Source: Leucobacter chromiisoli
Lineage (GTDB): Bacteria > Actinomycetota > Actinomycetes > Actinomycetales > Microbacteriaceae
DNA length: 64,000 nucleotides
Assembly: GCF_016522505.1 (NCBI RefSeq)
Contig: NZ_JAEHOH010000001.1
Span: forward strand, 434,001 to 498,000
Direction of reading: 5' to 3'
Each line of letters opens with the position of its first letter. Within the stretch, counting starts at the first letter, position 1. Under the pieces are notes generated by a model that was not told the origin of the DNA, did not search any database, and saw only the letters and a program-made list of their open reading frames with translations. Below are positions 17,667 through 38,645 of the stretch, piece by piece. The position numbers and the translations under genes are program-made.

Positions 17667-18518
17667 TCAGCGCTCGATCTTGTCGAGGTGCAGCATGCGC
17701 GCGAGGTTCTTGTCGAGCTCGTCGTCGCGGAAGATCTTCTTCCAGTCCTCCTTGATGATGCTCTCGCGGCCGTAGTCCATGGCGATCAGGCACGCCTCGC
17801 TGAAGGGGTTGTCGCCGCGCAGACCGTTCGCGAGCGCCACCTGCGTGTGGCCGTAGAGGATGCTGCGCGCCGCGGCCTCGGGCACCCCCATGGTGTCGAT
17901 CGCCTCCTGCAGCGCCTCGTTCAGCAGCTCGCCGATCATGCAGGCGACCGTCTCCACGAGCGTCGGCTCGAGCTGCGCGAGCTGCTTGACGGTGACCCAG
18001 TGCACGTCGATGACGGGGGCGTAGATCGCACGGACGGTGGCCTCCACGATCTCCCGCTTCTCGGGATCGTCGGACTCGACCGCGGCGATCGCGTCTTGCG
18101 GGGCGGCGATGCCGCCGAAGGTGTCCGCCCACTCCTCGGGGGTCGTGCGCTCGAGGAACACCGACGGGTGGCACGGGTGGGCGACCGCCTGGATCACGTC
18201 GTCGCGGGTCGTCAGCAGACCGGCGTAGGCTGCCGCGGGATCGAGGGTGAGCAGGATCGCGCCGCTCTTCATCTGCGGCACGAGCTCCGCCGAGACGCTC
18301 GCGAGCGCGAGGTCGGGCACCGCGAGGACGACGATGTCGGCGCCCGCCACGGCGGTCGCGGCGTCGGTCAGCTCGCGACCGGCCGCGACGACCCGCTCCC
18401 GGCCCGCGGGCGAGGTCTCGACGTAGGAGACGCGATGGTCGGTCTTCACGAGGTTGTTCGAGACCCGGGTGCCCATCTTGCCGCCGGCGCCGATGACCGC
18501 GATCGCGTAGTTGTTCAC
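17667..18518 (-). CDS. PGDH_C-type NAD(P) dehydrogenase, probable D-apionate oxidoisomerase (ApnO-like)
   Basis: A 283-residue dehydrogenase. The Rossmann N-terminus (IAVIGAGGKMGTRVSNNL) is followed by a helical C-terminal domain of the phosphogluconate-dehydrogenase-C type (AHPCHPSVF near 113-121, HTQVALANGLRGDNPFSEACLIAMDYG near 224-250). Known ApnO enzymes, which turn D-apionate into 3-oxo-isoapionate with NAD, share this architecture. The neighbours (TIM-barrel enzyme, Dak-type kinase, TIM paralogue) are the remaining steps of that route, so I infer ApnO function, but substrate specificity is unproven. GTG 18518 overlaps the upstream gene's stop; it is the last gene of the reverse operon. 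Confidence 0.65.
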   Translation of the reverse strand: MNNYAIAVIGAGGKMGTRVSNNLVKTDHRVSYVETSPAGRERVVAAGRELTDAATAVAGADIVVLAVPDLALASVSAELVPQMKSGAILLTLDPAAAYAGLLTTRDDVIQAVAHPCHPSVFLERTTPEEWADTFGGIAAPQDAIAAVESDDPEKREIVEATVRAIYAPVIDVHWVTVKQLAQLEPTLVETVACMIGELLNEALQEAIDTMGVPEAAARSILYGHTQVALANGLRGDNPFSEACLIAMDYGRESIIKEDWKKIFRDDELDKNLARMLHLDKIER

Positions 18519-19309
18519 AGTGTGCTCCTTAGATATTCGAGTGTGGTTCGTGTCCAGGCCCGTTCGAGGTCAACGGTGCTCGTGGGATCCCCCTGCCAGG
18601 GGAGCCAGTGCTCGACGACCTCGTTGATCCCGCGCTCGCGGGGACGGGCCGTGTCGAGCAGGTGGCGGTAGTCGTGCAGGCCGCGGCCCATCGGGGCTCC
18701 GCTGTACGTGAAGCCGACCCAGCCGTCCTGCCGGTCGAAGGCGAAGTCCTTGACGTGGACGTTCTTCAGGACGGGGGCCGCGAGCTCCACGCAGTCGCGA
18801 GGGTGCTCGAGCCTCGCGACCACGTTCGCTGGGTCGAGGCAGACGCCGAGCCTCGGCGAACCGACCCGCTCGACCAGGCGCACGAGGTCGGCCGTCGCGA
18901 TCTGCTCGTAGGTCTCGAGCGCGAGGTCGACGCCGGCCCGCTCGAAGGCGGGCGCGGCGTCGCGCAGCCACTCCTCGGCCTGCTGCGGGTTCGGCCGGCT
19001 GTCGGGGCCGAACACCATACTGCGGACGAGCCGTGCGTCGAAGATCTCGGCCAGACGGAGGAAGCGCTCGAGTCGGGGCGCTTCGATGCCCTTGGTGCCG
19101 AGCTCGATCGTGAGGCCCAGATCCCGCGCCGCCCGCGCGGCCTCCCGCAGCTGCTCATCGCTCATCCGCTCCAGAGGCGCGAAATCGCAGATCTGGAACA
19201 GCCGCACGTCCTGCTCCCGGGTGGCTTCGAACGCCCCCACGAGGGAGAGCGGGGCGGGAACCCGGTCCGAGTGCTGCCAGAAGAAGGCGTAGGTGCTGAG
19301 ACCGATCAT
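18515..19309 (-). CDS. Xylose-isomerase-like TIM-barrel enzyme, probable 3-oxo-isoapionate decarboxylase (OiaC-like)
   Basis: A 264-residue protein of the sugar phosphate isomerase/epimerase (AP_endonuc_2) fold. It starts MIGLSTYAFFWQ and has the typical metal-ligand strand ends: LALETYEQ, GVCLDPANV, NVHVKDFAF and INEVVEHW. The family contains isomerases, epimerases and decarboxylases, so fold alone does not set the reaction. Adjacency to an ApnO-like dehydrogenase and to erythrulose-type kinase and isomerase genes suggests the OiaC step, releasing CO2 and L-erythrulose. The gene lies 11 bp after the amidase and overlaps the dehydrogenase by four bases. Confidence 0.6.
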   Translation of the reverse strand: MIGLSTYAFFWQHSDRVPAPLSLVGAFEATREQDVRLFQICDFAPLERMSDEQLREAARAARDLGLTIELGTKGIEAPRLERFLRLAEIFDARLVRSMVFGPDSRPNPQQAEEWLRDAAPAFERAGVDLALETYEQIATADLVRLVERVGSPRLGVCLDPANVVARLEHPRDCVELAAPVLKNVHVKDFAFDRQDGWVGFTYSGAPMGRGLHDYRHLLDTARPRERGINEVVEHWLPWQGDPTSTVDLERAWTRTTLEYLRSTL

Positions 19310-19320
19310 TCCACTGCGCC

Positions 19321-20730
19321 TCAGCGGACGGGGAACTGCGGCGCCGCCTCCGCGGGGCGCGCGGCCTCGTACCAGGACGCCGCCTGCAGCACGCCGAGAT
19401 CGTCGAAGCGGCGCCCCGAGAGCTGGAGGCCGATCGTGCGGCCGTCCGAGGTGAGGCCGCAATTCACGGTGGCGGCGGGCTGGCCCGACATGTTGTAGGG
19501 GAGGGTGAACCCGATGTGGCTCATGCCGCCGTTCTCGAAGCCGAAGGGCATCGGCCACTCCGCGGGGAAGGCGGCGCGGGTCGCGACCGGCGACAGCACG
19601 ATGTCGTAGGGCTGCGTCGCAGCGGTCGTGGCGGCGCGCAGCTCCTGGATGGTCTCGTAGCACTCGAGCACGCGCGACCCGGGAACGTCGGATCCGCCCA
19701 TGCACCAGTCGGCGATGAAGGGCAGCACCCGCATCTGCTTCTCGGCGGGCAGGGCCCGGTAGGTCGCCCACGAGCGCACGCGCCAGAACTGGTCGAGGTC
19801 GGTCAGCATGTCGTCGGTGATGAAGGGATCCACCTCGACGACCTCCGCGCCCGCGGCGGCGAACAGCCGGCCGGCCGCGGCGACGGCGTCGCGCACCTCG
19901 GGATCGAGCTCCAGGCCCGCTCCGGCGTCGAGGTGGAGGCCGACCCTGAGCTTCGACACGTCGGTTCCCAGCTGCGTCCAGTCGATCTCCGCGCCGGGGA
20001 GGGCCGTGTAGTCGCGGGCGTCGGGGCGCGACACGATCTCCATGGTCCAGGCCAGATCCTCGACGGTGCGGGACATCGGGCCCGCCGCGCGACCGAGATA
20101 GGGGTTGTCGAGCGGCACGCGCCCGTCGCTGGGCTTCAGCGTGGCGAGGCCGAGCCAGGTGCCGGGCAGCCGGATCGAGCCGCCGATGTCGGTGCCGATG
20201 TTGGCGACCGCGAAGCCCGCCGCGGCGGCGGCGCCCGCACCGGCGCTCGAGCCGCCGGTGGTCAAGGAGGGATCCCACGGGCTGCGCGAGATGCCGTTGA
20301 TGCTGGAGACGCCGGAGGAGAGCATGCCCCAGTCGGGCATCGTGGTGGATCCGACGATCACGGCGCCCGACTCGAGCGCGCGGTCGACGACGGGCGCGTT
20401 CGCGGTGGAGAGGCTCGGGTCGGTCGCCGCCGTGCCCGAGCGGTAGTCGACGCCCTCGCGGCGCAGGTTCTCCTTGATCGTCCACGGCACGCCGTCGAAG
20501 TCGCTCAGCTGCTCGCCGCGCCGCCAGCGCTCGGCGCTCCGCTCGGCGCTGCTGCGCACGTTCTCGGGGGTGAACTCGGTGAAGGCGTTGAGCTCCGGGT
20601 TGCGCTCCTCCACGGTCTCGATGACCGCTTCGGCGACGTCGACGGGATCGAAGTCGCCGGCCGTGAAGCCGGCGCTCAGCTCCCTGCCCGTCATCGCTCG
20701 GAGTTCGGATCGGCTGGATGCGGTGGACAT
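19321..20730 (-). CDS. Amidase-signature-family hydrolase
   Basis: A 469-residue cytosolic amidase. The Ser-cisSer-Lys triad is intact: K86 in VPWTIKEN, the GGSSAGAG loop (160-166) and nucleophile S185 in GTDIGGSIR. There is no signal peptide. GGGGAG-like bases precede the ATG. It sits between a peptide-type ABC transporter and the two sugar-acid enzymes in the same operon, so it probably hydrolyses an amide bond in the imported compound or in a pathway intermediate. Its substrate is not predictable from sequence; glutamyl-tRNA amidotransferase function is unlikely because no gatC/gatB is near. Confidence 0.8.
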   Translation of the reverse strand: MSTASSRSELRAMTGRELSAGFTAGDFDPVDVAEAVIETVEERNPELNAFTEFTPENVRSSAERSAERWRRGEQLSDFDGVPWTIKENLRREGVDYRSGTAATDPSLSTANAPVVDRALESGAVIVGSTTMPDWGMLSSGVSSINGISRSPWDPSLTTGGSSAGAGAAAAAGFAVANIGTDIGGSIRLPGTWLGLATLKPSDGRVPLDNPYLGRAAGPMSRTVEDLAWTMEIVSRPDARDYTALPGAEIDWTQLGTDVSKLRVGLHLDAGAGLELDPEVRDAVAAAGRLFAAAGAEVVEVDPFITDDMLTDLDQFWRVRSWATYRALPAEKQMRVLPFIADWCMGGSDVPGSRVLECYETIQELRAATTAATQPYDIVLSPVATRAAFPAEWPMPFGFENGGMSHIGFTLPYNMSGQPAATVNCGLTSDGRTIGLQLSGRRFDDLGVLQAASWYEAARPAEAAPQFPVR

Positions 20731-20807: not shown

Positions 20808-22556
20808 CTACGCGGAGCCGATCGCGTGGTGCAGCGTCGGCGTCGCCTCGATGAGCTGGCGGGTGTAGTCGTCCTGCGGGTTCTCGTAGATCTCGGCGGT
20901 CGTGCCGGTCTCGACGACGTTGCCCGCCCGCATCACGGCGACCGTGTCGCACAGGTGCTTGACCACGCTGAGATCGTGCGACACGAACAGCAGCGTGAGC
21001 GCGTACTCGTCGACGAGGTCGGCGAGCAGGTTGAGCACCTGGGCGCGCACCGAGACGTCGAGGGCGCTGACCGGCTCGTCGGCGACCAGGATCCGGGGCT
21101 TGCACACGAGCGCGCGGGCGATCGAGATGCGCTGCCGCTGACCGCCGGAGAACTGGTGGGGGAAGCGCTCCATGGCATCGGGGCTGAGCCCCACGGCCTC
21201 GAGCATCTCGGCCACGGCGTCCCTGCGGTCGCTCGCGCGCATCGGCTTGCCGTCCTGCAGGTTGGCGGGGTTGAGCAGCGGCTCCTCGACGATGTCGAGC
21301 ACCCGCATGCGCGGATCGAGGGACGCCATCGGATCCTGGAACACGATCTGCAGCTGGCTGCGCAGGGTGCCGAAGTCGCGGTCGCGGGCGCGCATGAGGT
21401 CGATGTCGAGCACGTCGGCCTGCCCGCCGGTGGGCCGCTCGAGGCCCGACAGGATCTTGAGCAGCGTCGACTTGCCCGATCCCGACTCGCCGACGATGCC
21501 GAAACGCTGGCCGGCGTGGACGGTGAAGTCGATTCCGCGCAGGGCCCGCACCTCGGCGGCCTTGCCGAACATCGAGGCGCGAGTGCGCACGTAGGTCTTC
21601 GTGAGATCCCGGGCCCGGATGATCGGCTCGCCGCCGTGCTCGGCCGGCGACTCGCCCACGGGCTCCGGCGCCGGTTCCGCCGCCACTTGCTCCGCGACCT
21701 CGGCCGGCCGGTACGCCGCCGCGGTCGCCACGGTGAACAGGCGCCCGTGCTCGTCGCGGGCGTCGAGGTCGGAGGCCGCCAGCAGCCCTCGGGTGTAGGG
21801 GTGCTGCGGGTTCTGGAAGACCTGCTCGATGGGTCCCTCCTCGACGATGTCGCCCTTGTTGAGCACCACCGCGCGGTCGCAGACGCTCGCCACGACGGCG
21901 AGGTCGTGGGTGATGAAGAGCATGCCCGTGTCGCGCTTCCTGACGAGCTCGACCACGAGATCCAGCACCTGCCGCTGCACCGTGACGTCGAGCGCGGTGG
22001 TCGGTTCGTCGCAGATGAGCAGGGACGGATCGTTGGCGAGCGCCATCGCCAGCATCACGCGCTGGCGCTGCCCGCCCGAGAGCTGGTGCGGGAAGGCCTG
22101 CGCGGCCTCCGCCGGATTGGGCAGGCCCACGTCGTCGAGGAGCGAGACGGCGCGCTTCTCGGCCGCCGCCCGCGAGGGCTGGGTGCCGTGGATCTGCATG
22201 ATCTCCGCGACCTGGCGACCCACCCGCATGAGCGGGTTGAGCGCGGTCATCGGCTCCTGGAACACCATCGACATCGACTTGCCGCGCCGCTGCGCGAGCT
22301 CCCGCTCGGAGAGCTGCAGCAGGTTGACCGAGTCGTCGCCGGCGTGCACCGTCCCGCTCGCGGTCAGCGGCTCGGGGAGCAGGCCCATCACGGCGAGCGA
22401 GGTGAGCGACTTGCCCGATCCCGACTCGCCGATCAGTCCGACCCGCTCGCCCTGGGCGATGTGGAAGGAGATGCCGCTCACGAGAGAGGCGTGCGGCGTC
22501 CTGACCGTGAGGTTCGAGACGTCGAGCGCGAGCTGCGAGTTCACTGGGGTGTTCAT
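20808..22556 (-). CDS. Fused peptide-type ABC transporter ATPase (DppD-DppF)
   Basis: A single 582-residue chain joins two ATPase domains. Domain 1 has Walker A GESGSGKS (K49), LSGGQRQRVMLAM, CDEPTTALDVT and an oligopeptide-family C-terminal end (NPQHPYTRGLL). Domain 2 (from about residue 330) has Walker A near 355-363, FSGGQRQRISIA, ADEPVSALDVS and NPQDDYTRQLIEA. The linker around 300-325 is Ala/Pro/Glu-rich. It energises the two permeases upstream. ATG 22556 gives an ATGA overlap with the permease stop. Confidence 0.92.
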   Translation of the reverse strand: MNTPVNSQLALDVSNLTVRTPHASLVSGISFHIAQGERVGLIGESGSGKSLTSLAVMGLLPEPLTASGTVHAGDDSVNLLQLSERELAQRRGKSMSMVFQEPMTALNPLMRVGRQVAEIMQIHGTQPSRAAAEKRAVSLLDDVGLPNPAEAAQAFPHQLSGGQRQRVMLAMALANDPSLLICDEPTTALDVTVQRQVLDLVVELVRKRDTGMLFITHDLAVVASVCDRAVVLNKGDIVEEGPIEQVFQNPQHPYTRGLLAASDLDARDEHGRLFTVATAAAYRPAEVAEQVAAEPAPEPVGESPAEHGGEPIIRARDLTKTYVRTRASMFGKAAEVRALRGIDFTVHAGQRFGIVGESGSGKSTLLKILSGLERPTGGQADVLDIDLMRARDRDFGTLRSQLQIVFQDPMASLDPRMRVLDIVEEPLLNPANLQDGKPMRASDRRDAVAEMLEAVGLSPDAMERFPHQFSGGQRQRISIARALVCKPRILVADEPVSALDVSVRAQVLNLLADLVDEYALTLLFVSHDLSVVKHLCDTVAVMRAGNVVETGTTAEIYENPQDDYTRQLIEATPTLHHAIGSA

Positions 22557-23446
22557 CGGTTCTCCCGGAGTTTCGGATCGAAACGATCGCGCAGACCGTC
22601 GCCGAGCAGGTTGAATCCCAGGACCGCGATGGCGATCGCGACGCCGGGGAAGATCGCGAGATAGACGTCGGTGGCGAGGAACTGCTGCGACTCCTGCAGC
22701 ATGCGTCCCCACGAGGGCGTCGGAGGGGGAGTGCCCAGACCGAGGAAGGAGAGCCCCGCCTCGGCGAGCACCGCGATCGCGAAGTTCACGGAGGCCTGCA
22801 CGACGAGCATGCCCGAGATGTTGGGGAGCACGTGCCGCAGGGCGATCATGAACATCGGGCGGTTCGCCGCGCGGGCGGCGAAGATGTAGTCGGTCTTCAT
22901 GACCTGCAGGGTCCCGGCCCTCGCGACGCGGGCGAAGGCGGGGATCGCGGCGATGCCGATGGCCGACATCGCGGTGACCGTGCTGCCGCCGAACACCGCG
23001 CCGAAGATGATGGCGAGGAGCAGGTTGGGGAACGCCATCATCACGTCGGTGACCCGCATGAGGAAGCCGTCGAGACGGCCGCCACGCATGCCGGCCACGA
23101 TGCCGAGCGGCACGCCGAACACGACCGCGATGCCGACGGCGACGATGCCGACGAGCAGCGTGATCTGCGACCCGACCATGATGGCCGAGAAGACGTCGCG
23201 GCCGTAGCGGTCGGTGCCCATCCAGTGCTCGGCCCCCGGCGGCTGCAGGCGATCCGCCGGCACGCTCTGCACGGGGTTGTAGGGGGTCCAGAAGAACGAG
23301 ATCAGGGCCGTGACGACGACGATGCCGACGAGGATCCCGCCGGCGATCAGCTGGGCGTTGAGGCGCTCGCGGCGCCGCGGGACGGCCAGCGCCAGCGTGG
23401 CCGGAGGCTGCGCGACGACGCCCGTGGGGGGATGCGATTCGGTCAT
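22553..23446 (-). CDS. Peptide-type ABC transporter permease (DppC family)
   Basis: A 297-residue permease. An N-terminal cytoplasmic segment is followed by a first helix (LIAGGILVGIVVVTALISFF), then the DppC hallmark HWMGTDRYGRDVFSAIMVGSQITL near residues 72-95. The EAA-like loop is RPMFMIALRHVLPNISGMLVVQ, and the C-terminal part has GLGTPPPTPSWGRML. It starts at ATG 23446, two bases after the partner permease stop. Confidence 0.92.
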   Translation of the reverse strand: MTESHPPTGVVAQPPATLALAVPRRRERLNAQLIAGGILVGIVVVTALISFFWTPYNPVQSVPADRLQPPGAEHWMGTDRYGRDVFSAIMVGSQITLLVGIVAVGIAVVFGVPLGIVAGMRGGRLDGFLMRVTDVMMAFPNLLLAIIFGAVFGGSTVTAMSAIGIAAIPAFARVARAGTLQVMKTDYIFAARAANRPMFMIALRHVLPNISGMLVVQASVNFAIAVLAEAGLSFLGLGTPPPTPSWGRMLQESQQFLATDVYLAIFPGVAIAIAVLGFNLLGDGLRDRFDPKLRENR

Positions 23447-23448: not shown

Positions 23449-24396
23449 TCAGGCCGCCTTCCGCAGACGAGGATCGAACAGCGAGTACGTGATCTCCACC
23501 AGGAAGTTGATGAGGACCACCAGCAGCACGAGCATCACGCCGACGCCCTGGACGGCGATGAGGTCGCGGTTGCTGACGGAGTCGACGAGCAGGCTGCCGA
23601 GGCCGGGGATGACGAACACCCGCTCGATGACGACGGCGCCGACCAGCATCGTGGCGAGCTGCACGCCCACCACCGTCAGCACCGGGATGCCGGCGTTGCG
23701 CAGGCCGTGCCGCACGAGCGCCGCGTTGCTGGTGAGGCCCTTCGCCCGCGCGGTGCGGAGGAAGTCCTCGCGCATGATCTCGAGCACGGCCGAGCGGACG
23801 TAGCGGGTCATCACCGACGCCTGCACGGAGCCGAGCGCGAGCGCCGGGAGGAAGATCCTGCGCACGAACTCGCCGAAGTCGTCGGCGGGCGCCACCCAGC
23901 CCCCGGACGGGAACCACCCGAGGTTGACGGCGAAGAGCGCGATGAGCAGCACGCCGACGAGGAAGTTCGGCACCGCGACGCCCACCTGGGAGACGCCGGA
24001 GATGATGGCCCCGGAGGCGTTGCGGTGGCGGATCGCGGCGAGGGTGCCGACGGGGATGGCGATGACGAGGGCGAGCACCATCGCCGTGATCACCAGGAGG
24101 AGCGTCACCTGCGTCCGGTCGATGACCAGGGCGGAGATGTTCTCCTGCAGCACGTACGAGTCGCCGAAGTCACCGCGGAGGAGCCCGCCCGCCCAGTCGA
24201 AGTACTGGAGGACGAGCGGCTGATCGATCCCGTATCGCTCGCGCCACTGGTCGAGCGCCTCCGGAGTCGCGTTGACTCCGAGTGCGACGACCGCGGGGTC
24301 TCCCGGCATGACGCGCAGCAGCGCGAACAGGATGACCGTGGCGATGAACAGGGTGATGATCAGCTGTCCCAGACTGCTGAGAAGCCGAAGCGGCAT
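23449..24396 (-). CDS. Peptide-type ABC transporter permease (DppB family)
   Basis: A 315-residue permease of the BPD_transp_1 family. Helix 1 is LGQLIITLFIATVILFALLR followed by VMPGDPAV, as in DppB/OppB. The ATPase-contact loop is MREDFLRTARAKGLTSNAALVRHGLRNA near residues 205-232, and the end is VEITYSLFDPRLRKA. It is preceded by GGAGC and followed closely by the DppC-type gene. Confidence 0.92.
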   Translation of the reverse strand: MPLRLLSSLGQLIITLFIATVILFALLRVMPGDPAVVALGVNATPEALDQWRERYGIDQPLVLQYFDWAGGLLRGDFGDSYVLQENISALVIDRTQVTLLLVITAMVLALVIAIPVGTLAAIRHRNASGAIISGVSQVGVAVPNFLVGVLLIALFAVNLGWFPSGGWVAPADDFGEFVRRIFLPALALGSVQASVMTRYVRSAVLEIMREDFLRTARAKGLTSNAALVRHGLRNAGIPVLTVVGVQLATMLVGAVVIERVFVIPGLGSLLVDSVSNRDLIAVQGVGVMLVLLVVLINFLVEITYSLFDPRLRKAA

Positions 24397-24440: not shown

Positions 24441-25961
24441 CTACTCGCTCCAGTGCATGGTCGAGAGCGTGAGCGCCTCGGTGACCTCGTTCTCCTGCAC
24501 GCCCTCGAGACCGGCCTTGGAGACCGAGACGAGCGGGTAGAGGAAGAGGAACTCGGCGGCGGCGTCCTCGGAGATGATGCGTGCGACCTCCTTCATCCCC
24601 TCGACGTACTCCTCCTCGGTGCCCTGGTCCGCTGCCGCGGCGAGGTCCTTGATCTTGGAGTTGTCGTAGCCCGTGTAGAACTCGGGGTCGTTGAAGGTGA
24701 TGAGCATGTCGCGGGCCTCGGCGGTGCCGATGACGGTCATCTCGTAGTCGGCCTGGGTCCAGACCGTGTCGAGCCAGACGGCGGGGAACTCGGTCGACTC
24801 GATGGTCACGTTGATGCCCACGTCGGCGAGCTGCGAGACCACGATGTCGGAGACGGCGGTCGCGTAGGGGAGCGTCGGGACCTTCCAGGTCACGTCGATG
24901 TTCTCGGCTCCCGCCTCCTTGAGCAGGTCGCGGGCCTTGTCGGGATCGTAGGGGTAGAGATCCGTCAGATCCTCGTAGTACGGGTCGTGCGGCGGGACCA
25001 TGCCGCCGATCTCGGTGCCGTAGCCGGCCCACGCGGTGTCGATGACGGCCTGCTCGTCGATCGCGTAGCGGACGGCCTGGCGCACGCGGATGTCGTCGAA
25101 CGGAGCGCGCTTGTTGTTCATGGCGAGCATGATCTCGCGGTTGGTCGAGCCCTCGACGACGCTGAACGCGTCATCGCTCTTGAACCCGTCGATGAGGTCG
25201 GGGGCGCCGAGGTTGTAGACGAGGTCGACGTCGCCCGCGCGCAGCGCGTTCGTGGTGGCCACCGCGTCGGCGAAGTAGCGCATCGTCACGTCCTTGATGG
25301 CCGGCTCCTCGCCCCAGTAGTCGTCGCGGGCCTCGAGGCTGATGCTGTCGCCGCGCTTGACGTCGGTGATGACGTAGGGGCCGGTGCCGATCGGCTCGTT
25401 CGCGAGGTCGCCGACCTCCTTGGGCATCATGGCGCCGACGGAGGTGCCCATGTCGAACAGCCACGCGTTGCTGGGGCGGCTCAGGGTGACGGTGACCTCG
25501 GTCGGGGAGACGACCTCGACCGACTCGACGACATCCATCTTGTTCTTGAGGTCGAGCACCCAGTCGTTCTGCACTCGCTCGATGCTGGCCTTCACGTCAT
25601 CGGCGGTGAACGGCTCGCCGTTCGAGAAGGTCACGTCCTCCTGCAGCGTGAAGGTGTAGGACTTGCGATCGTCGCTGAGCTCCCACGACTCGGCGAGCTG
25701 CGGCTGGGGCGTGCCCTCCTGGTCGATGACGACGAGGCCCTCGTAGACGTTGGTCATCAGCAGCTGCGGGATCGGCGCACCGCCCGTGGTGGTGAAGTCG
25801 AAGTTCTGGGGCTCCGCGGTCAGAGCGACGGTGAGCGAGTCCTGGTCGGCACCGGCGGAGGATCCGCCCGAGTTGCCGGAGCTGCCCGCGCTGCAGGCGC
25901 TGAGGACCATCGCTGCCGCCAGTGCGGCGGCCGCAGCGACGGTGCGGCGAAGTTTTGGCAT
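24441..25961 (-). CDS. Solute-binding lipoprotein, SBP family 5
   Basis: A 506-residue extracytoplasmic receptor. The signal ends in lipobox LSAC (C23), followed by a Gly/Ser linker and the family 5 fold (SLTVALTAEPQNFDFTT, ESWELSDDRKSYTFTLQEDVTFSNGEPFTADDV, EPIGTGPYVI). Family 5 receptors bind peptides but also opines, glutathione, nickel and some sugars. I chose ATG 25961 because AAGGGAG lies eight bases upstream and the lipoprotein signal starts there. It is the first gene of a seven-gene reverse operon ending at 17667. Confidence 0.92.
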   Translation of the reverse strand: MPKLRRTVAAAAALAAAMVLSACSAGSSGNSGGSSAGADQDSLTVALTAEPQNFDFTTTGGAPIPQLLMTNVYEGLVVIDQEGTPQPQLAESWELSDDRKSYTFTLQEDVTFSNGEPFTADDVKASIERVQNDWVLDLKNKMDVVESVEVVSPTEVTVTLSRPSNAWLFDMGTSVGAMMPKEVGDLANEPIGTGPYVITDVKRGDSISLEARDDYWGEEPAIKDVTMRYFADAVATTNALRAGDVDLVYNLGAPDLIDGFKSDDAFSVVEGSTNREIMLAMNNKRAPFDDIRVRQAVRYAIDEQAVIDTAWAGYGTEIGGMVPPHDPYYEDLTDLYPYDPDKARDLLKEAGAENIDVTWKVPTLPYATAVSDIVVSQLADVGINVTIESTEFPAVWLDTVWTQADYEMTVIGTAEARDMLITFNDPEFYTGYDNSKIKDLAAAADQGTEEEYVEGMKEVARIISEDAAAEFLFLYPLVSVSKAGLEGVQENEVTEALTLSTMHWSE

Positions 25962-25990: not shown

Positions 25991-26013
25991 GTCTACTGGT
26001 TCGACCAGTAGAC
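25991..26013. promoter_or_regulatory. FadR-type GntR operator (23-bp perfect palindrome)
   Basis: Ten-base arms GTCTACTGGT and ACCAGTAGAC flank TCG. The core CTGGTTCGACCAG differs by one base from the classical E. coli FadR half-site pattern CTGGTC-N-GACCAG and fits the FadR-subfamily rule TNGTNNNACNA. It lies 30 bp before the binding-protein gene, next to a FadR-type regulator gene, and directly downstream of a reverse-strand promoter, the position of a repressor roadblock. Confidence 0.8.
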
Positions 26014-26020
26014 TTGCTTT

Positions 26021-26049
26021 AAATTAGCCTATGAGATGCGAACGGTCAA
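26021..26049 (-). promoter_or_regulatory. Promoter of the ABC-amidase-catabolic operon
   Basis: On the reverse strand, TTGACC (26049-26044) and TAATTT (26026-26021) are separated by exactly 17 bp, a strong sigma-70-type promoter. The expected transcription start, near 26014, abuts the FadR-type palindrome. Confidence 0.7.
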
Positions 26050-26101: not shown

Positions 26102-26890
26102 ATGTCGGAACCCTTGTTCACCGAGGCGGGGCGCAAGGTCGCGTACGAGTCGATCGTCGAACAGGTGGAGAGCGCCGTCGCGGCGGGCCGGCTGAAGGCC
26201 GGCGACCGGCTGCCGGGGGAGCGGCAGCTCATGGCGGAGTTCGGCGTCAGCCGATCCACCGTGCGCGAGGCGCTGAAGGTGCTGCAGGCCACGGGAAGCA
26301 TCATCACCAAGCCCGGCGACCCCCGGGGCCCGATCATCACGAACTACTCACCCCGTCTCCTCGAGAACTCGATCCAGCGCTTCGCCAGGCTCGAGTCGGT
26401 CTCGCGCGCCGAGCTGCTGCAGTTCCGGCTCTCGCTCGAGAGCACCGCCTGCCGCCTCGCCGCGCAGCTCCACGACGACGCAGATCTCGAGCGCATCGTC
26501 GAGGCCCAGAAGCTCATGGAGGCCGCCGCGCGTGAGGAGGCCGTGAAGTTCCCCGAGGCCACGAACCGCTTCGACGACACGCTGAAGGTGGCCTCGCACA
26601 ACCAGATCATCCGGGTCTGCGGCAACGCGGTGGCCGACGTCATGAGGGAGCTCGTCTACGCGCGCCTCGCCCAGGACCCCGACCGGGACTCCCGGATGCT
26701 GCGGCAGGCGCGCGCCGCGGGGGAGCTGGTCGAGGCGATCCGGAACCGGGACTCGGCGCGCGCCGCGTCGATCGTGCGCCGCAACATCTACCGCTTCTAC
26801 GCCGAGGACCTGACGCCGGAGGAGGACCGCCAGACGAGGGCGCTCGTCTACCTTGAGGAGGACGAGCGCGACGACGCGCCGGCCGATTGA
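26102..26890 (+). CDS. GntR-family regulator, FadR subfamily
   Basis: A 262-residue regulator. The GntR winged helix is at about residues 15-80 (RLPGERQLMAEFGVSRSTVREALKVLQATG), and the helical FCD effector domain follows (LLQFRLSLESTACRLAAQ, NRFDDTLKVASHNQIIRVCGNAV). GAGGAGG lies ten bases before ATG 26102. It is divergent from the ABC-catabolic operon and upstream of the kinase gene, so it probably represses both in the absence of an inducing acid. A FadR-type palindrome lies in the shared intergenic region. Confidence 0.88.
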   Translation: MSEPLFTEAGRKVAYESIVEQVESAVAAGRLKAGDRLPGERQLMAEFGVSRSTVREALKVLQATGSIITKPGDPRGPIITNYSPRLLENSIQRFARLESVSRAELLQFRLSLESTACRLAAQLHDDADLERIVEAQKLMEAAAREEAVKFPEATNRFDDTLKVASHNQIIRVCGNAVADVMRELVYARLAQDPDRDSRMLRQARAAGELVEAIRNRDSARAASIVRRNIYRFYAEDLTPEEDRQTRALVYLEEDERDDAPAD

Positions 26891-27023: not shown

Positions 27024-28763
27024 ATGACGCGACTGTTCAACGACCCCGACGAGTTCGCCGCCGAGATGATCGAGGGCTTCGCCGCCGCATCGGCGCGCTG
27101 GGTGCGCGCCGTGCCCGGCGGCGTCGTGCGATCGACCCGGGGCGCTGAGCCCACAGTGGCCCTGGTGATCGGGGGCGGAAGCGGGCACTACCCGGCATTC
27201 GGCGGGCTCGTGGGGCCCGGCCTCGCCCACGGCGCCGCGATGGGCAACCTCTTCGCCTCGCCCTCGGCGCAGCGCGTGCACTCGGTCGCCGCCGCGGCCG
27301 ACGAGGGGCGGGGCGTGCTGCTGAGCTACGGCAACTACGCCGGCGACGTGCTGCACTTCGACCAGGCCCAGGAGCGGCTCCGCGCCGAGGGGGTCGACTG
27401 CCGCACCGTCCGCGTCACCGACGACGTCTCGAGCGCGCCCGCCGAGGAGATCGAGAAGCGCCGCGGCATCGCCGGCGACCTCACGGTGTTCAAGATCGCG
27501 GGGGCCGCCGCCGAGGCGGGGTACGACCTCGACGGCGTGGAGCGCGTCGCGAACCGGGCGAACTCCCGCACCCGGTCGTTCGGCGTCGCCTTCGGGGGGT
27601 GCACCCTGCCCGGGGCTGACGAGCCGCTGTTCGACGTGCCGGAGGGGCGCATGGCCGTGGGGCTCGGCATCCACGGGGAGCCCGGGATCGACGAGGTCGA
27701 CGTGCCGACCGCCGACGGACTCGCCGAGCTGTTCGTGACGAAGCTGCTCGACGAGGTCCCCGAGGGCGTCTCTCGCGACGGCGCTCGGGTGGTCCCGATC
27801 CTCAACGGGCTCGGCAGCGTCAAGTACGAGGAGCTCTACGTCGTCTACGCCTCGGTCGCCCGGCGACTCGAGGAGGCCGGTCTCGTGCTCGTCTCGCCGG
27901 AGGTGGGGGAGTTCTGCACGAGCTTCGACATGGCGGGGGCGTCGCTCACCCTGCTCTGGCTCGACGAGGAGCTCGAGCGGCTCTGGCTGGAGCCGTGCGA
28001 CACGCCGGCCTTCCGGCGCGGCGCGGTCGCCGGGCGCGTGGCGGTGCGCGAGGAGGACCTCGTCGCCGCCGGACCTTCCCGGGAGATCGGCCCGTCGACG
28101 GAGGAGTCCCGCGACGCCGCGGCCACGGCCGCGGCGGTGCTCGACGCCCTCGCGCGGATGCTCGACGAGCAGGCCGAGGAGCTCGGCCGCATCGACCGGA
28201 TCGCGGGCGACGGGGATCACGGCATCGGCATGCAGCGGGGCAGCGCCGCGGCCTCGGCCGCTGCGGCCGCCGCCGCGGAGGCCGGCGCCGGGGCGGGCAC
28301 GCTGCTGCGCTGCGCGGGCGACGCCTGGAGCGACGAGGGCGGCGGAACCTCGGGCGCCATCTGGGGGCGGATGCTCGACGCGCTCGGGGGCGAGCTCGGC
28401 GACGAGCACCCGGTCGATACCGCCGCGGTGGGCGCGGGCGTCACCCGGATGAAGGAGGCGATCATGTCGTTCGGCAAGGCGCAGCCGGGCGACAAGACGA
28501 TGATCGACGCGGTCGTGCCGTTCGCCGACGAGCTCTCCGCGAGGATCGCGGCCGGGGACGGGCTGCTCGAGGCCTGGACGAGCGCGGTCGAGGCCGCCCG
28601 TCGCGGAGCCGAGGAGACCGCCGACATGGTCGCTCGGCTCGGGAGGGCGCGCTCGCACGGCGACAAGAGCCTCGGCACGCCGGATCCCGGAGCCGTCTCC
28701 TTCTCGCTCGCGGCGCGGACCGCGCTCGAGGTGCTGGCGGAGCGCGGGGAGGGCGCGGCGTGA
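27024..28763 (+). CDS. Fused DhaK-DhaL kinase, probable L-erythrulose kinase (LerK-like)
   Basis: An ATP-dependent Dak-family kinase of 579 residues. The DhaK domain (1 to about 330) has IGGGSGHYPAFGGLVG and the substrate-binding histidine H217 in GLGIHGEPG. The DhaL domain (about 365-575) has the Mg/ATP motif GDGDHGIGM (395-403), DEGGGTSGAIWG and HGDKSLGTPDPGA. CAGGAGG precedes the ATG. Single-chain enzymes of this family phosphorylate dihydroxyacetone, L-erythrulose or D-erythrulose. The TIM paralogue translated in overlap with it points to erythrulose, but dihydroxyacetone cannot be excluded. Confidence 0.8.
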   Translation: MTRLFNDPDEFAAEMIEGFAAASARWVRAVPGGVVRSTRGAEPTVALVIGGGSGHYPAFGGLVGPGLAHGAAMGNLFASPSAQRVHSVAAAADEGRGVLLSYGNYAGDVLHFDQAQERLRAEGVDCRTVRVTDDVSSAPAEEIEKRRGIAGDLTVFKIAGAAAEAGYDLDGVERVANRANSRTRSFGVAFGGCTLPGADEPLFDVPEGRMAVGLGIHGEPGIDEVDVPTADGLAELFVTKLLDEVPEGVSRDGARVVPILNGLGSVKYEELYVVYASVARRLEEAGLVLVSPEVGEFCTSFDMAGASLTLLWLDEELERLWLEPCDTPAFRRGAVAGRVAVREEDLVAAGPSREIGPSTEESRDAAATAAAVLDALARMLDEQAEELGRIDRIAGDGDHGIGMQRGSAAASAAAAAAAEAGAGAGTLLRCAGDAWSDEGGGTSGAIWGRMLDALGGELGDEHPVDTAAVGAGVTRMKEAIMSFGKAQPGDKTMIDAVVPFADELSARIAAGDGLLEAWTSAVEAARRGAEETADMVARLGRARSHGDKSLGTPDPGAVSFSLAARTALEVLAERGEGAA

Positions 28764-29563
28764 CCGCGGTCGGAGGGGCGGACGCCGCGGGCCCGGGCAT
28801 GCTCATCGGCACCAGCTTGAAGATGTACTTCTCGCACGCTCGCACGGTGGAGTGGGTGACGGAGGCCGCACGCCTCGCGGGTCGGCACCCCGCCGTCGCG
28901 GACGGGCGCGTCGTGCCCTTCGTCATCCCCCAGTTCCCGTCGATCCCGGCCGCCGTCGAGATCGGCGGCCCCGCCGGGCTGCGGGTGGGCGCGCAGGACG
29001 TGGCCGCGGAGGACGCCGGGGCGTTCACGGGAGAGGTGAGCGCAGCCGTGCTCGCCGAACTCGGCTGCCGCTACGCGGAGGTCGGGCACGCCGAGCGGCG
29101 CAGGCTGTTCGGCGAGACCGAGGAGATCGTCGCCGCGAAGGTGGACGCGGCGCTGCGGAACGGACTCACCCCGCTGCTGTGCCTCGGCGAGCTCGAACGC
29201 GGCGAACCCGCGGCGGCGGTCGCGGAGTGCGTCCGGCAGCTCGACTCGGCCCTCGGCGTCGCGCGCTCGGCGGGCAGGGGCGGGGACATCGTGATCGCCT
29301 ACGAGCCCGTCTGGGCGATCGGGGCCGCCCGGCCGGCCGGCCCCGATCACATCCGAGGGGTCTGCGGCCCGCTGCGCGAACACGCCCGGGCCCGTGTCTC
29401 GCCCTCGGCGCGGGTGATCTACGGCGGCAGCGCGGGACCGGGCCTGCTGGAGGCGATCGGCGACAGCGTCGACGGCCTCTTCCTCGGGCGCTTCGCGCAC
29501 GATCCGGCGTCGTTCGGCAGCGTGCTCGACGAGGCCGCCGCGCTCACTCGGCCAGGAGCCTGA
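28760..29563 (+). CDS. Triosephosphate-isomerase paralogue, probable L-erythrulose-1-phosphate isomerase (LerI-like)
   Basis: A 267-residue TIM-family enzyme. The catalytic lysine (K21 in GTSLKMYF), histidine (H110 in VGHAERR) and glutamate (E182 in AYEPVWAIG) are present, as is the phosphate loop YGGSAGPG. Two signature positions differ from housekeeping TIM: GNWKMN is GTSLKMY, and the serine after the catalytic histidine is alanine. Known LerI/EryH enzymes likewise diverge from TIM at the GNWKMN motif. GTG 28760 overlaps the kinase stop; an internal ATG at 28799 is an alternative start. The 3' end overlaps the next convergent gene by 20 bp. Confidence 0.75.
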   Translation: MTAVGGADAAGPGMLIGTSLKMYFSHARTVEWVTEAARLAGRHPAVADGRVVPFVIPQFPSIPAAVEIGGPAGLRVGAQDVAAEDAGAFTGEVSAAVLAELGCRYAEVGHAERRRLFGETEEIVAAKVDAALRNGLTPLLCLGELERGEPAAAVAECVRQLDSALGVARSAGRGGDIVIAYEPVWAIGAARPAGPDHIRGVCGPLREHARARVSPSARVIYGGSAGPGLLEAIGDSVDGLFLGRFAHDPASFGSVLDEAAALTRPGA

Positions 29564-30296
29564 GCGCGAGTCGGTCGCCCTCGTCCTCGAGCAGGGGCGC
29601 GTAGCGCTCGGCGACCGATCGCCTCGCGATCCCGCCCGCCAGCTGCGCGTCCTGCGCGGCGATCGCCTCGAAGAGCCCCTCGTCGGTCGTGGTCGAGGAG
29701 AGCTTCACGCGGTTGTCGTTCTGATCGTCCGCCTCCTCCTGCCGCATCAGCAGGCGGAGCACGCCCGACACGGCCTGACCGCTCATCTCGAGGATCCCGT
29801 TTCGGCTGGCCGCCCAGATCGCCTCGTGGAACTCCAGGTCGGCGTCGGCGAAGTCGGGGTCGTTCGTCTCCGCTGCGGCGCGCATCCGCTCCACCGCGGC
29901 CCGCATCCGGTCGAGGTCGGCGTCCGTGCGCCTGAGGGCGGCGAGCTTGCTCGTCGAGCCCTCGAGCACCACGCGGAACTGCACGAGCTCGGAGACGTCC
30001 ATCGCGCTGGTGCCGAGCATCGCCCGGAAGGAGCGCCGCAGCGCGCTCGGCGACGGTGCGAGCACCAGGGGGCCGCCGCGCATGCCCGGGCGGGATTCGA
30101 TGAGCCCCATGCTCTGCAGGATGCGCAGGGCCTCGCGCACGGTCGGTCGGCTGACCCCGAACTGGGCCATCAGATCCCGCTCGCTGGCGAGCTGCGATCC
30201 GACGGGAACCTCGCCCGAGACGATCGCCCGCTCGATCTGCTCGACGATGCGCTGGTAGGTGTGGACCGGGGTGACCGGCTCGAACCTGTGCGACAT
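29544..30296 (-). CDS. Second FadR-subfamily GntR regulator
   Basis: A 250-residue regulator. The winged helix (YQRIVEQIERAIVSGEVPVGSQLASERDLMAQFGVSRPTVREAL) lies at residues 14-60. The FCD domain has LVQFRVVLEGSTSKLAA, DADLEFHEAIWAASRN and a C-terminal helix pair. It is distinct from the regulator at 26102 (only the HTH core is clearly alike). It overlaps the TIM paralogue convergently. The 135-bp upstream gap has no obvious TGGTNNNACCA site, so its target is not evident; the SDR/aldehyde dehydrogenase genes or the kinase operon are candidates. Confidence 0.85.
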   Translation of the reverse strand: MSHRFEPVTPVHTYQRIVEQIERAIVSGEVPVGSQLASERDLMAQFGVSRPTVREALRILQSMGLIESRPGMRGGPLVLAPSPSALRRSFRAMLGTSAMDVSELVQFRVVLEGSTSKLAALRRTDADLDRMRAAVERMRAAAETNDPDFADADLEFHEAIWAASRNGILEMSGQAVSGVLRLLMRQEEADDQNDNRVKLSSTTTDEGLFEAIAAQDAQLAGGIARRSVAERYAPLLEDEGDRLALRLLAE

Positions 30297-34849: not shown

Positions 34850-35653
34850 CTATGACGCGGGCGGGGTGAAGCGCCCGTCGATCGCGGTCCAGCCGCCGTC
34901 GACCGTGAGCGTCGATCCCGTGACGAACGAGGAGGCGTCGGAGGCGAGGTAGACGACCGCTCCGGCGAGCTCGTCGGGGCGCGCCCAGCGGCCGAGCGCG
35001 GCCTTCTGCGAGTAGGCGTCGTACCAGGCGTCGTTCGCCTTGATCTGGGCGGTGAGCGGCGTCTCGACGACACCCGGAGCGACGACGTTGACGCGCACGC
35101 CCTGCGCTCCGTACTCGGCGGCGGCGGTCTTGGCGAGCTGCACGAGACCGGCCTTGGTGGCGGCGTAGACGCCCTGGCCGGGCTCGACGACCTGGGCGCG
35201 GATCGAGGCGAAGCCGACGATCGAGCCGCCGCCGTTCGCGGCGAAGCGCGCGCCGAAGGTGCGGATCAGCTGGAACGAGGATCGCAGGTTCAGGTTGACG
35301 ACGCGGTCGAACTCCTCGAGCGAGTAGTCCTCCATGCGCTTGCGCACGTTCGTCGCCGCGGTGAAGACCAGGGCGGCGGCATCGCCGAAGCGCTCGGCCG
35401 CGTCCTCGACGGCGCCGTCGTCGAGGACGTCGATCTCGAAGGCCTCGGCCGAGCCGCCGCGCTCGCGGATCAGCTCGGTCGTCGCCGCAGCCTGCTCCGA
35501 TGCGCGATCGGCCGCCACCACGTGCGCGCCCTGTGCGGCGAGCGCTTGCGCCGCCTCGCGGCCGATGCCGCCTCCCGCGCCGACCACGACGACGGTGCGG
35601 TCGTCGAGGCGGAAGAGACGGGAGTAGTCGGGGGAGGGGAGGGCGTCGGTCAT
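34850..35653 (-). CDS. Short-chain dehydrogenase/reductase
   Basis: A classical SDR of 267 residues. The cofactor motif is VVVVGAGGGIG (21-31), with D49 after the second strand (VVAADR) favouring NAD. The catalytic set is S150, Y163 and K167 (GVYAATKAG), and the end has GSTLTVDGGW. It is most like sugar or polyol/gluconate dehydrogenases by overall pattern, but specificity is not readable. AAGGAAG precedes the ATG. The SDR and the aldehyde dehydrogenase upstream are co-directional, with a 131-bp gap that shows nothing clear. Confidence 0.85.
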   Translation of the reverse strand: MTDALPSPDYSRLFRLDDRTVVVVGAGGGIGREAAQALAAQGAHVVAADRASEQAAATTELIRERGGSAEAFEIDVLDDGAVEDAAERFGDAAALVFTAATNVRKRMEDYSLEEFDRVVNLNLRSSFQLIRTFGARFAANGGGSIVGFASIRAQVVEPGQGVYAATKAGLVQLAKTAAAEYGAQGVRVNVVAPGVVETPLTAQIKANDAWYDAYSQKAALGRWARPDELAGAVVYLASDASSFVTGSTLTVDGGWTAIDGRFTPPAS

Positions 35654-35784: not shown

Positions 35785-37296
35785 CTACCGTGCTCGGGGG
35801 CGGATCATCGCCATGCGGGTGACGGTGTACTCCTCGATGGCGTAGCGGGGGCCTTCGCGCCCGACACCCGAGTCCTTCACGCCGCCGTAGGGCATGATGT
35901 CGGAGCGGAAGCCGGGGATCTCGTTGACCACGACTCCGCCGACCTCGAGCCGCTCGACGGCCGCGAAGGCGCTCTCGAGCGAGGAGGTGAAGATCGCCGC
36001 CTGGAGGCCGTAGCGGGAATCGTTGACCAGGTCGATGGCCTCGTCGACCGAGTCGACCGTCGTGAGGCATACGACGGGGCCGAAGATCTCCTCGGCCCAG
36101 ACGTCGACGTCGGCCGGCACGTCGCCGAGCACCGTGGGCCGGATCATCGCGGGGCCCGCGGCGCCTGCGGAACCGGGGTCCGCCTCCCGCGACTCTCCCG
36201 GTCCGACGAGGACCCGCGCGCCTGCGGAGACGGCGCGGTCGATCATGGCCCGGATCCGCTCGCCCGATGCGGCGTTGATGACCGGGGCGACGTTCGTCGC
36301 GGCGTCTCGGGGATCGCCGACGACCAGCTCGGCGACGCGTTCGGCGAGGTGCGCCGCGAAGCGATCCGCGACGGGGCGCTCGAGCAGGATCCGCTGCACC
36401 GAGATGCACGCCTGCCCGTTCGCGTAGAAGCCGCCCGCCACCACGGCGTCGACCGCGGCCTCGACGTCGGCATCCGCCGCGACGATGAACCCGGTGTTCG
36501 ACCCGAGCTCGAGCAGGGTCTTGCGGGGGGCGGCCTGCTGCGCGATCAGGTGGCCGATCTTCGCGGAGCCGGTGAAGGAGACGACCTGCGCGCGCGGATC
36601 CCGCACCAGCGTCTCTCCGACGCTCGGGCCGCCGTTCACGAGCTGCACGGCGGCGGGGGTGACGTCGTGATCGGCGAGCACCTCGCGCACGATCGCGATG
36701 AGCTCGAGCGTGGCGAGCGGGGTGTTCGGCGCGGGCTTGACGATCACGGGGCAGCCGGCCGCGATGGCGGGCGCGAGCTTGTGGGTCGCGAGCAGCAGCG
36801 GGTAGTTGAAACCCGCGATCGCGACGACGACGCCGGCCGGTTTGCGCGTGTAGTAGCCGATCATGCCGCGGCCGAGCTCCTGCAGGTCGAGGGGCACGGT
36901 CTCGCCGTGGATTCGCGAGGCCTCCTCCGCGGTGGCCTGCAGGGTGACGATCGTGCGGCTCACCTCGGTGCGGCAGTCGACGCGAGGCTTGCCGGTCTCG
37001 AGGATCAGCAGATCCTCGATACGCTCCGCCTCGGCCCGGAGCCGGTCGTGGACGGCGGTGAGGATGGACTTGCGCTGAGCGGTGGTCAGCGCGGCGACCT
37101 CGGCTCGTGCGGCCTCGGCCGCGTCGAGGGCGTCCGCGGAATCGGCGGCGGTACCGACGGGCGCCTGCGCCACTACGCCGCCGTCGAAGGGGAAGACGAC
37201 GGGGGACGTCTCGGCCGCGGGCCGCCAGCCGTCGCCGATGGGCAGAGCGCCGGCGGGAGCGAGCAGCGGCTGGGCGAGCGGGCGGGTGTCGGTCAC
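35785..37296 (-). CDS. NAD(P)-dependent aldehyde dehydrogenase
   Basis: A 503-residue ALDH superfamily enzyme. The oxyanion asparagine is N164 (GFNYPLL), the cofactor loop SFTGSAKIG, the general base E263 and the nucleophile C297 (YANGQACISVQR). The usual LELGG motif is LELGS here, a mild deviation. Resembles lactaldehyde/glyceraldehyde-type dehydrogenases with a VDKxxxR-free C-terminus. GTG 37296 has AAGGAG upstream. The promoter region carries a FadR-like operator, so it may oxidise an aldehyde from the neighbouring catabolic route. Confidence 0.88.
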   Translation of the reverse strand: MTDTRPLAQPLLAPAGALPIGDGWRPAAETSPVVFPFDGGVVAQAPVGTAADSADALDAAEAARAEVAALTTAQRKSILTAVHDRLRAEAERIEDLLILETGKPRVDCRTEVSRTIVTLQATAEEASRIHGETVPLDLQELGRGMIGYYTRKPAGVVVAIAGFNYPLLLATHKLAPAIAAGCPVIVKPAPNTPLATLELIAIVREVLADHDVTPAAVQLVNGGPSVGETLVRDPRAQVVSFTGSAKIGHLIAQQAAPRKTLLELGSNTGFIVAADADVEAAVDAVVAGGFYANGQACISVQRILLERPVADRFAAHLAERVAELVVGDPRDAATNVAPVINAASGERIRAMIDRAVSAGARVLVGPGESREADPGSAGAAGPAMIRPTVLGDVPADVDVWAEEIFGPVVCLTTVDSVDEAIDLVNDSRYGLQAAIFTSSLESAFAAVERLEVGGVVVNEIPGFRSDIMPYGGVKDSGVGREGPRYAIEEYTVTRMAMIRPRAR

Positions 37297-37410: not shown

Positions 37411-37425
37411 AGTGGTCTTACCACT
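37411..37425. promoter_or_regulatory. Second FadR-like operator
   Basis: AGTGGTCTTACCACT has six-base arms around CTT and shares the TGGTNNNACCA core with the site at 25991-26013. It lies in the divergent region between the aldehyde dehydrogenase and the isopropylmalate-type dehydrogenase, directly downstream of a reverse-strand -10 element, the same geometry as the first site. Confidence 0.7.
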
Positions 37426-37514: not shown

Positions 37515-38645
37515 ATGACCCAGCCCTACTCGATTGCAGTGCTGCCCGGCGACGGCATCGGACCGGAGGTCGTGGGCTGCGCCCTCGAGGTGCTCGACGC
37601 GGCGGAGGCCCGCTACGGGTTCCGCACCGAGCGCAGCGAGGTCGCGGCCGGCGCGAACCGCTACCTGGAGACGGGCGAGCTGTTCGACGCCGTCGACGCG
37701 CGCCTGCGCGACAAGGACGCGATCCTGTTCGGCTCGATGGGGGATCCGCGGGTCGCGCCCGGGATCCTGGAGCGCGGCTTCATCCTCGAGATGCGCCAGC
37801 GCTTCCAGCAGGCGGCGAACGTGCGCCCCGTGCGCCTCTACCCCGGCGTGCCGACGCCGATCGCGGGCCTCACCCCCGAGCGCTGCGAGATGGTGATCGT
37901 GCGCGAGAACACCGAGGGCGCCTACGTGGGACGCGGCTCCACGGTGCACGCGGGCACCCCGAACGCCGTCGCCATGCAGGAGTCGCTCAACACGCGGGCC
38001 GGGATCGAGCGGGTCGTCGACTTCTCGTTCAGGCTCGCGCTCGGCCGCCGCCGCCGCCTCACGCTCTGCCACAAGACGAACATCCTGGTCGCCGCCGGGC
38101 AGCTGTGGCAGGAGGTGGTGGAGGACCTCGCCTCGCTCTACCCCGAGGTGGAGGTCGACTACGTGCACGTCGATGCGATGTGCTTCCACCTGCCGCTCGC
38201 GCCCGAGCGCTTCGACGTCGTCGTCACCGACAACCTGTTCGGAGACATCATCACCGACCTCGGCGCCGTGATCCAGGGCGGCCTCGGAGTCGCCACCAGT
38301 GCGAATCTGAACCTCGACGGCTCCGCGCCGAGCATGTTCGAGGCGATCCACGGCTCCGCGCCCGATATCGCCGGCAAGGGATGGGCGAACCCCTCGGGCG
38401 CGGTCCTGTCGCTCGCGCTGATGCTCGGACACCTCGGCGAGGGGGAGGCCGCGCGCGCCGTCGAGGCGGCCACCGTCGAGGTGCTCGGCGGGCTGCCGGC
38501 GCTCGCCGGCGCCGAGATGGGCGCGACGACGGCCGAGGTGGGTACGCGGATCGCCGAGCTGGTGCGCAGCGGCGAGGCCGACGCCTCGCTCGTTCCCGAC
38601 TCACTGCTCGGCACCCTCGCCGCGCTGCCCGACTCGCGGCGGTGA
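37515..38645 (+). CDS. Isocitrate/isopropylmalate-family dehydrogenase
   Basis: A 376-residue NAD-linked beta-decarboxylating hydroxyacid dehydrogenase. It starts IAVLPGDGIGPEVVG and has VRENTEGAYVGRG, the catalytic-lysine region CHKTNIL, the metal aspartates in VTDNLFGDIITDLGA, and IHGSAPDIAGKGWANP. The VRENTEG motif is closer to homoisocitrate, tartrate or D-malate dehydrogenases than to LeuB (VRELTGG). It is divergent from the aldehyde dehydrogenase, so a role in hydroxyacid catabolism is more likely than leucine synthesis. The substrate is open. Confidence 0.8.
   Translation: MTQPYSIAVLPGDGIGPEVVGCALEVLDAAEARYGFRTERSEVAAGANRYLETGELFDAVDARLRDKDAILFGSMGDPRVAPGILERGFILEMRQRFQQAANVRPVRLYPGVPTPIAGLTPERCEMVIVRENTEGAYVGRGSTVHAGTPNAVAMQESLNTRAGIERVVDFSFRLALGRRRRLTLCHKTNILVAAGQLWQEVVEDLASLYPEVEVDYVHVDAMCFHLPLAPERFDVVVTDNLFGDIITDLGAVIQGGLGVATSANLNLDGSAPSMFEAIHGSAPDIAGKGWANPSGAVLSLALMLGHLGEGEAARAVEAATVEVLGGLPALAGAEMGATTAEVGTRIAELVRSGEADASLVPDSLLGTLAALPDSRR

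Follow-up and report, generated by a model that had tools for sequence, protein, structure and literature searches.

Regulators of the FadR subfamily, a branch of the GntR-type transcription factors, offer the closest described parallels to the locus considered here. Single-site divergons of such regulators are described in the available excerpts of PMC4494728, where regulator position 39 is also said to correlate with the central operator bases, in a numbering in which position 0 is Ser-7 and position 60 is Lys-67 of Escherichia coli FadR; by this offset, position 39 is FadR residue 46. The consensus site of E. coli FadR is printed as AACTGGTCNGACCAGTT in PMC3626644, the box of E. coli LldR appears as AAnTGGTCnGACCAnTT in PMC10272880, and TNGTNNNACNA is a consensus quoted in PMC2230225.

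The present analysis concerns a 64,000-nucleotide stretch of the Leucobacter chromiisoli genome, referred to throughout as the window, in which a single inverted repeat faces two transcripts, that of a FadR-subfamily regulator (regulator A) with the genes behind it and that of a transporter operon. Judged from comparative sequence evidence, the palindrome is likely the operator through which regulator A represses the operon, within a module that was acquired and displaced a homologue run by a second regulator (regulator B), a composite reading held with good confidence. The features on which the argument draws are as follows.

25991..26013, no strand assigned: predicted operator of regulator A, a 10-bp inverted repeat with a 3-bp centre and the core CTGGTTCGACCAG, called from site conservation
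26044..26049, minus strand: -35 box TTGACC of the leftward promoter, its TTGAC conserved in relatives
26021..26026, minus strand: -10 box TAATTT at 17-bp spacing, read by eye against relatives
24441..25961, minus strand: SBP_bac_5 substrate-binding lipoprotein (SBP), first operon gene, its start placed by eye at a ribosome site within an ORF that opens at 25985
23449..24396, minus strand: ABC permease B, placed in a tree
22553..23446, minus strand: ABC permease C
20808..22556, minus strand: double ABC ATPase, oligopeptide type
19321..20730, minus strand: amidase, placed in a tree
18515..19309, minus strand: xylose-isomerase-like TIM barrel protein
17667..18518, minus strand: PGDH_C oxidoreductase, taken here to be ApnO-like, at the end of the leftward gene run
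26102..26890, plus strand: regulator A, with a GntR-type helix-turn-helix and an FCD domain (FadR subfamily); its specificity residue is Ser52
27024..28763, plus strand: dihydroxyacetone-kinase-type kinase, downstream of regulator A
28760..29563, plus strand: triosephosphate-isomerase-like protein
29544..30296, minus strand: regulator B, a FadR-subfamily paralogue, Pro51 at the specificity position
34850..35653, minus strand: SDR oxidoreductase
35785..37296, minus strand: aldehyde dehydrogenase (ALDH)
37411..37425, no strand assigned: predicted operator of regulator B, AGTGGTCTTACCACT, between the ALDH and IMDH-like genes
37515..38645, plus strand: isopropylmalate/tartrate-type dehydrogenase (IMDH-like), second copy

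The element GTCTACTGGTTCGACCAGTAGAC occupies positions 25991-26013 and reads GTCTACTGGT-TCG-ACCAGTAGAC. An earlier sequence-only reading of this DNA had called it a 23-bp perfect palindrome; the inverted repeat is indeed present at that place, but perfection is limited to its two 10-bp arms, because the 3-bp centre TCG is asymmetric and without self-complementarity. Dinucleotide shuffling of the 116-bp intergenic stretch gave no 10-bp arm in 3000 trials, the 19-bp form at up to three mismatches occurs once in the window against 0.03 expected, and the 17-bp form is found at one place in the 3.35-Mb genome, with none other at 0 or 1 mismatch. At up to three mismatches, the same 17-mer has 43 places in the genome versus 170 for its reversed control. 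The operator fits TNGTNNNACNA, with the 3 bp between GT and AC that characterize the FadR subfamily. This short core is itself no rarer than chance (2 found versus 3.45 expected), TGGTNNNACCA has 19 sites genome-wide versus 20 for the reversed control, and the 11-bp core, being without enrichment, was ruled out as a genome-wide signal. Across the order and the phylum, the 17-mer was present in 4 of 396 and 4 of 396 genomes, respectively, the window's own being counted in both, versus 11 and 8 genomes (counted from tables) for its reversed control, so that the motif is meaningful only in context. Among the six other 17-mer matches, that in G161 falls within the IMDH/ALDH gap of a related cluster and that in G456 (L170) is upstream of a distant GntR gene (28% identity); for the remaining four, nothing in their 3-kb loci matched the 14 cluster proteins at E 1e-4.

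That context is provided by the regulators beside which the site occurs. Regulators were classed as A-type if they fell outside the B clade and lay beside or near a related transporter operon. A family scan covered 299 genomes, 18 of which (the window's own included) held a match at E 1e-34 or better, and an A-type regulator was present in 10 of the other 17, from five other genera, standing beside the transporter operon in eight and near it in two (g405). An eleventh A-type relative, with 43% identity, lies beside an IMDH-SBP-permease-ATPase operon in Phytoactinopolyspora limicola, with GGCTACTGGTCGGACCAGTAGCC between regulator and operon; of a further 71 loci, only L041 entered the A set, the rest showing weaker or partial matches when screened for cluster genes. 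The site is found in the gap upstream of the regulator in all 12 A-type loci examined (seven genera, window included). Relative to TACTGGTCNGRCCAGTA, the A sites show 0-2 mismatches in 10 loci and 3 in G161 and G997, with the window site at 1, a score that is not independent because TACTGGTCNGRCCAGTA is a consensus built from the very loci it scores; 798 of 800 base-shuffled gaps, taken from both regulator types, were at least four mismatches off. The window's TCG centre deviates from the CNG of the other A sites. Upstream of the operator core, a TTGAC stands in 10 of 10 divergent loci, at 38-50 bp. With the site beside 12 of 12 A-type regulators and the upstream TTGAC conserved in every divergent locus, the regulator-operator pair proposed from the sequence alone is supported, and the palindrome is very probably the operator of regulator A. 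In the regulator tree, window A groups with seven regulators from three other genera (G924, four g369, two g405) at 98/98, a placement that may be unsure, window A being marked as a long branch by the tree program; the A-type rows of G161, G997, G1042 and Phytoactinopolyspora stand at an unresolved fork.

Regulator A itself is a FadR-type protein, as had been claimed for the gene beside the site: the 26102-26890 product exceeds the cutoffs for both the GntR helix-turn-helix (PF00392; 65.1 bits, cutoff 27) and the C-terminal helical effector domain FCD (PF07729; 56.5 bits, cutoff 24.3). It reaches the cutoff of none of the 25 NCBIfam models listed for it, including those for LldR (64.1 of 311), GlcC (74.8 of 301), PdhR (70.2 of 330) and NanR (79.2 of 260), and its 31.2 bits of the 249.2 needed for TIGR02812, with 30.6 of 189 for NF003444, agree with the earlier view that the regulator is not FadR itself. 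Its FCD domain reads RFDD where the 24 other alignment rows read F-H; the histidine that thereby lacks a counterpart is presumably a metal ligand of FCD domains, and the effector chemistry of regulator A may differ. Regulators A and B are 39% identical. The best PDB match of regulator A is 2di3 (E 8.8e-18), the LldR of Corynebacterium glutamicum according to the excerpted PMC4494728. It was also correctly noted that the core of the palindrome lies one base from the classical E. coli FadR site, here AACTGGTCNGACCAGTT. The core is common to the FadR subfamily, recurring in the E. coli LldR box, and its closeness to a FadR site therefore says nothing about acyl-CoA; fatty-acid regulation, considered as a function on the strength of that core, was rejected because the core is generic for the subfamily and regulator A fails the FadR models.

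Regulator B and its sites show a different distribution. Among 36 genomes of the same genus, 24 carry a regulator that shares 57-75% identity with B and is divergent from an SBP gene that is 60-65% identical to the window's, and all 24 have a ATGGTAAGRCCACT element in the SBP/regulator gap. Each of these 24 contains precisely two copies of the 13-mer TGGTAAGRCCACT, which is absent from 11 of the other 12 same-genus genomes and present once in the twelfth; of 23 genomes from outside the genus, one (G039) contains it, in what reads like coding sequence. Among nine same-genus 20-kb stretches, the first B site is located at SBP/regulator in all nine and the second at IMDH/ALDH in all seven that reach that gap. 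The window's genome holds TGGTAAGRCCACT once, at 37411-37423 in the IMDH/ALDH gap, and no second regulator-B site within three mismatches of the 20-mer was found in the window, the SBP gene included. Window B falls in a 100/100 clade of B regulators, which extends to G860 and G928, from two other genera, where B sites are likewise present; two same-genus GntR matches (G033:C86 and G035:C49, 31-34% identity) were left out of the tree. The sequence-only reading had treated binding by either FadR-type protein as sufficient, which is too loose, since a separate operator of different sequence, at 37411-37425, is predicted for B.

The genes assigned to the two regulators likewise differ in their affinities. 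Compared with the nine same-genus stretches, the window shows 76-89% identity for IMDH, ALDH and SDR but 45-74% for the SBP, permease, ATPase and amidase genes, and the latter are closer to the operons of g369 and G924 (59-79%). In the trees, the same-genus clade excludes the window's SBP (100/100), permease B (100/99) and amidase (100/100), which stand next to G924 plus g369 (92/90, 100/99 and 92/94). Regulator A goes the same way as these genes (98/98), whereas regulator B belongs to the B clade (100/100). The GC content of the operon (0.66-0.71) is only slightly below that of its surroundings (0.69-0.78). These comparisons are most simply read as transfer, from another genus, of the regulator-operator-operon module, and this is probably correct, although the swap could instead reflect an ancient duplication with differential loss.

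The recognition helices align as SR[SA]T in all 12 A rows and as SRPT in all 29 B rows. FadR residue 46 is taken here to be the residue following Arg-45, which makes position 39 the residue that differs between A and B. The two kinds of site differ in the central triplet (CNG versus AAG) and in the base before TGGT, and the Ser/Ala or Pro residue tracks these two predicted site types. In G161 and G997, both with A-type regulators, the IMDH/ALDH gap holds the A-type site TTACTGGTCAGACCAGTA, suggesting that operator type follows regulator type at IMDH/ALDH as well, at least in the two genomes where this is visible. The SBP site of the same two genomes is a hybrid, with 3 mismatches to A and 2 to B, so that the A and B specificities may overlap; G1089 has a B-type site with a CAG centre, and this, like the TCG centre of the window's own site, also speaks against a clean separation. 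An arrangement in which regulator B, or both regulators, bind the palindrome as part of a common site set would draw on these hybrids, on the shared FadR-subfamily membership and identity of the two proteins and on the TGGTNNNRCCA present in both site types; it is nevertheless unlikely, given that in all 28 B loci scored the B site differs from ACATGGTAAGRCCACT by 0-1 mismatch, as against 6 for the window palindrome, and that the specificity residue separates all A rows from all B rows.

Similar sites were also seen near other GntR genes. In L184, a palindrome at 2235-2245 stands just downstream of a GntR gene that is outside the A and B groups and carries Pro at the specificity position; its reverse strand shows the B-type AAG centre. 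At G000:C13:376269-376279 (L004), TGGTCTGACCA is located approximately 60 bp past the 3' end of a GntR-type match (376338-377018, minus strand), and L038 and L039 have similar TGGTNNNACCA sites beyond the 3' ends of GntR genes.

The position of the palindrome relative to the leftward promoter bears on how regulator A might act. The sequence-only reading had described a strong reverse promoter, TTGACC-17-TAATTT; both boxes are present on the minus strand, 17 bp apart, but "strong" was an overstatement, since TAATTT matches TATAAT at only 3 of 6 positions and a promoter scan returned no promoter-like site at its threshold for the TTGACC/TAATTT pair. The +1 position would fall near 26013. The distance from TTGAC to the core is 38-41 bp in six divergent loci and 48-50 bp in four. 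Read by eye, G924 has TTGACC-18-TACCGT and the four g369 genomes have TTGACG-18-TAGCGT, both of which set the operator on the predicted start, as in the window; in the four loci with the longer distance, the operator would, on a by-eye reading, sit further in, which confines the operator-on-start layout to the window and five relatives. This layout also weighs upon the possibility that regulator A activates the operon through the palindrome. E. coli FadR acts in both directions, by activation and by repression. GntR1/2 of C. glutamicum do likewise at ptsG, as described in the available part of PMC2230225, giving activation some precedent. It is nonetheless quite doubtful here, because the operator comes after the by-eye -10 box and sits on the predicted start in the window, in G924 and in the four g369 loci, a position at which a bound protein normally blocks polymerase. 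Finally, action of the inverted repeat in RNA, as a 5' hairpin that stabilizes the mRNA or attenuates transcription rather than as a protein site, is very improbable: a start near 26013 would put the fold at the extreme 5' end (-18.1 kcal/mol, 65 nt, z -2.68), but no terminator-like site or known RNA element above threshold was found, Rfam gave two matches below E 1, at 17.6 and 15.7 where the gathering score is 40, the spacing to the -35 box ranges between 38 and 50 bp, and conservation follows the GntR-type half-site, with A-type sites also at IMDH/ALDH in two genomes.

Under repression by regulator A, a dimer would bind the palindrome with one winged helix per ACTGGT half-site and, positioned on the start of the leftward promoter or immediately beyond it, would keep the transporter-amidase operon (24441-25961 on to 17667) switched off. 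Located between divergent genes, the same dimer would probably also limit transcription of regulator A together with the downstream kinase and isomerase genes, which may be co-transcribed with it. The releasing effector is presumed to be a small acid or amide formed from the imported substrate. The module itself, comprising regulator A, the operator and the genes from SBP to amidase, most likely came from another genus of the family and would have displaced the homologous operon under regulator B; regulator B itself was retained, with its predicted control restricted to the IMDH-like and ALDH-SDR genes by way of 37411-37425.

Several gene associations hint at the chemistry involved. The PGDH_C protein is present in 53 genomes (own included); among the best 11 other loci, which were examined together with four 20-kb stretches, the TIM barrel gene adjoins the ApnO-like gene in 11 of 11. 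The order kinase, isomerase, TIM barrel, PGDH_C is found in three of the four stretches, all from other genera, and the fourth has the TIM barrel and PGDH_C only. The window splits these genes around the divergon, with 17667-19309 on the minus strand and 27024-29563 on the plus strand, so one operator may control both halves. As a set, they presumably resemble the route from D-apionate to L-erythrulose. The IMDH-like gene appears to be spare, in that a better LeuB candidate exists elsewhere in the genome (539.2 versus 432.4 bits on the same model), adjoining an apparent branched-chain aminotransferase gene as read from its translation, and amidase, SDR, ALDH and the spare isopropylmalate-type dehydrogenase recur together in the genus. 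Pantothenate degradation, as worked out by enzymology in the 1960s, proceeds through pantothenase, pantoate 4-dehydrogenase, aldopantoate dehydrogenase and 3,3-dimethylmalate dehydrogenase. The genus-wide set of oligopeptide-type importer, amidase, SDR, ALDH and spare IMDH would, by our assumption, fit these steps one by one. It is tempting to suggest that the regulon serves the degradation of pantothenate (vitamin B5), with the importer-amidase module swapped together with its regulator and operator and with two repressors in charge, although we hold this to be a rather long shot. The protein behind pantothenase activity is stated to be currently unknown in the portion of PMC10393543 (2023) at hand. 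No description of such a system was recognised among the papers found in searches on pantothenate or apionate catabolism and on GntR operon replacement.

Taken as a whole, the regulator-operator pair is an ordinary kind of object, and the interest lies in the apparent exchange of a module and in the presence, within one cluster, of two regulators with distinguishable sites. If the reading is correct, a catabolic operon was exchanged with its own switch and not put under the resident one, leaving a two-site regulon split. One palindrome becomes a testable pair of pairs, in which two related repressors in one cluster each have their own predicted sites, and both inducer and regulon would offer a concrete handle on an amide-catabolism pathway.

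Compared with known systems, the locus shares with E. coli FadR a winged-helix GntR domain, the operator core CTGGTYNGACCAG and the spacing of GT and AC 3 bp apart, but regulator A differs in having an FCD effector domain and in scoring far below the FadR models, and no fatty-acid gene was recognised in its operon. The E. coli LldR box AAnTGGTCnGACCAnTT, as given in the excerpted PMC10272880, has an identical TGGTCnGACCA core, whereas its outer half-site letters differ from those of the window site and regulator A reaches only 64.1 bits on the LldR model, with a cutoff of 311. A further parallel is given by the single-site divergons of FadR-subfamily regulators outlined in PMC4494728, which likewise have one palindrome between the regulator gene and its divergent target operon, and to which the window conforms further in that its palindrome is somewhat nearer the target operon. 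The difference from those divergons, so far as they are outlined there, is that here an otherwise conserved two-site regulon is apparently served by two diverged regulators with different operators.
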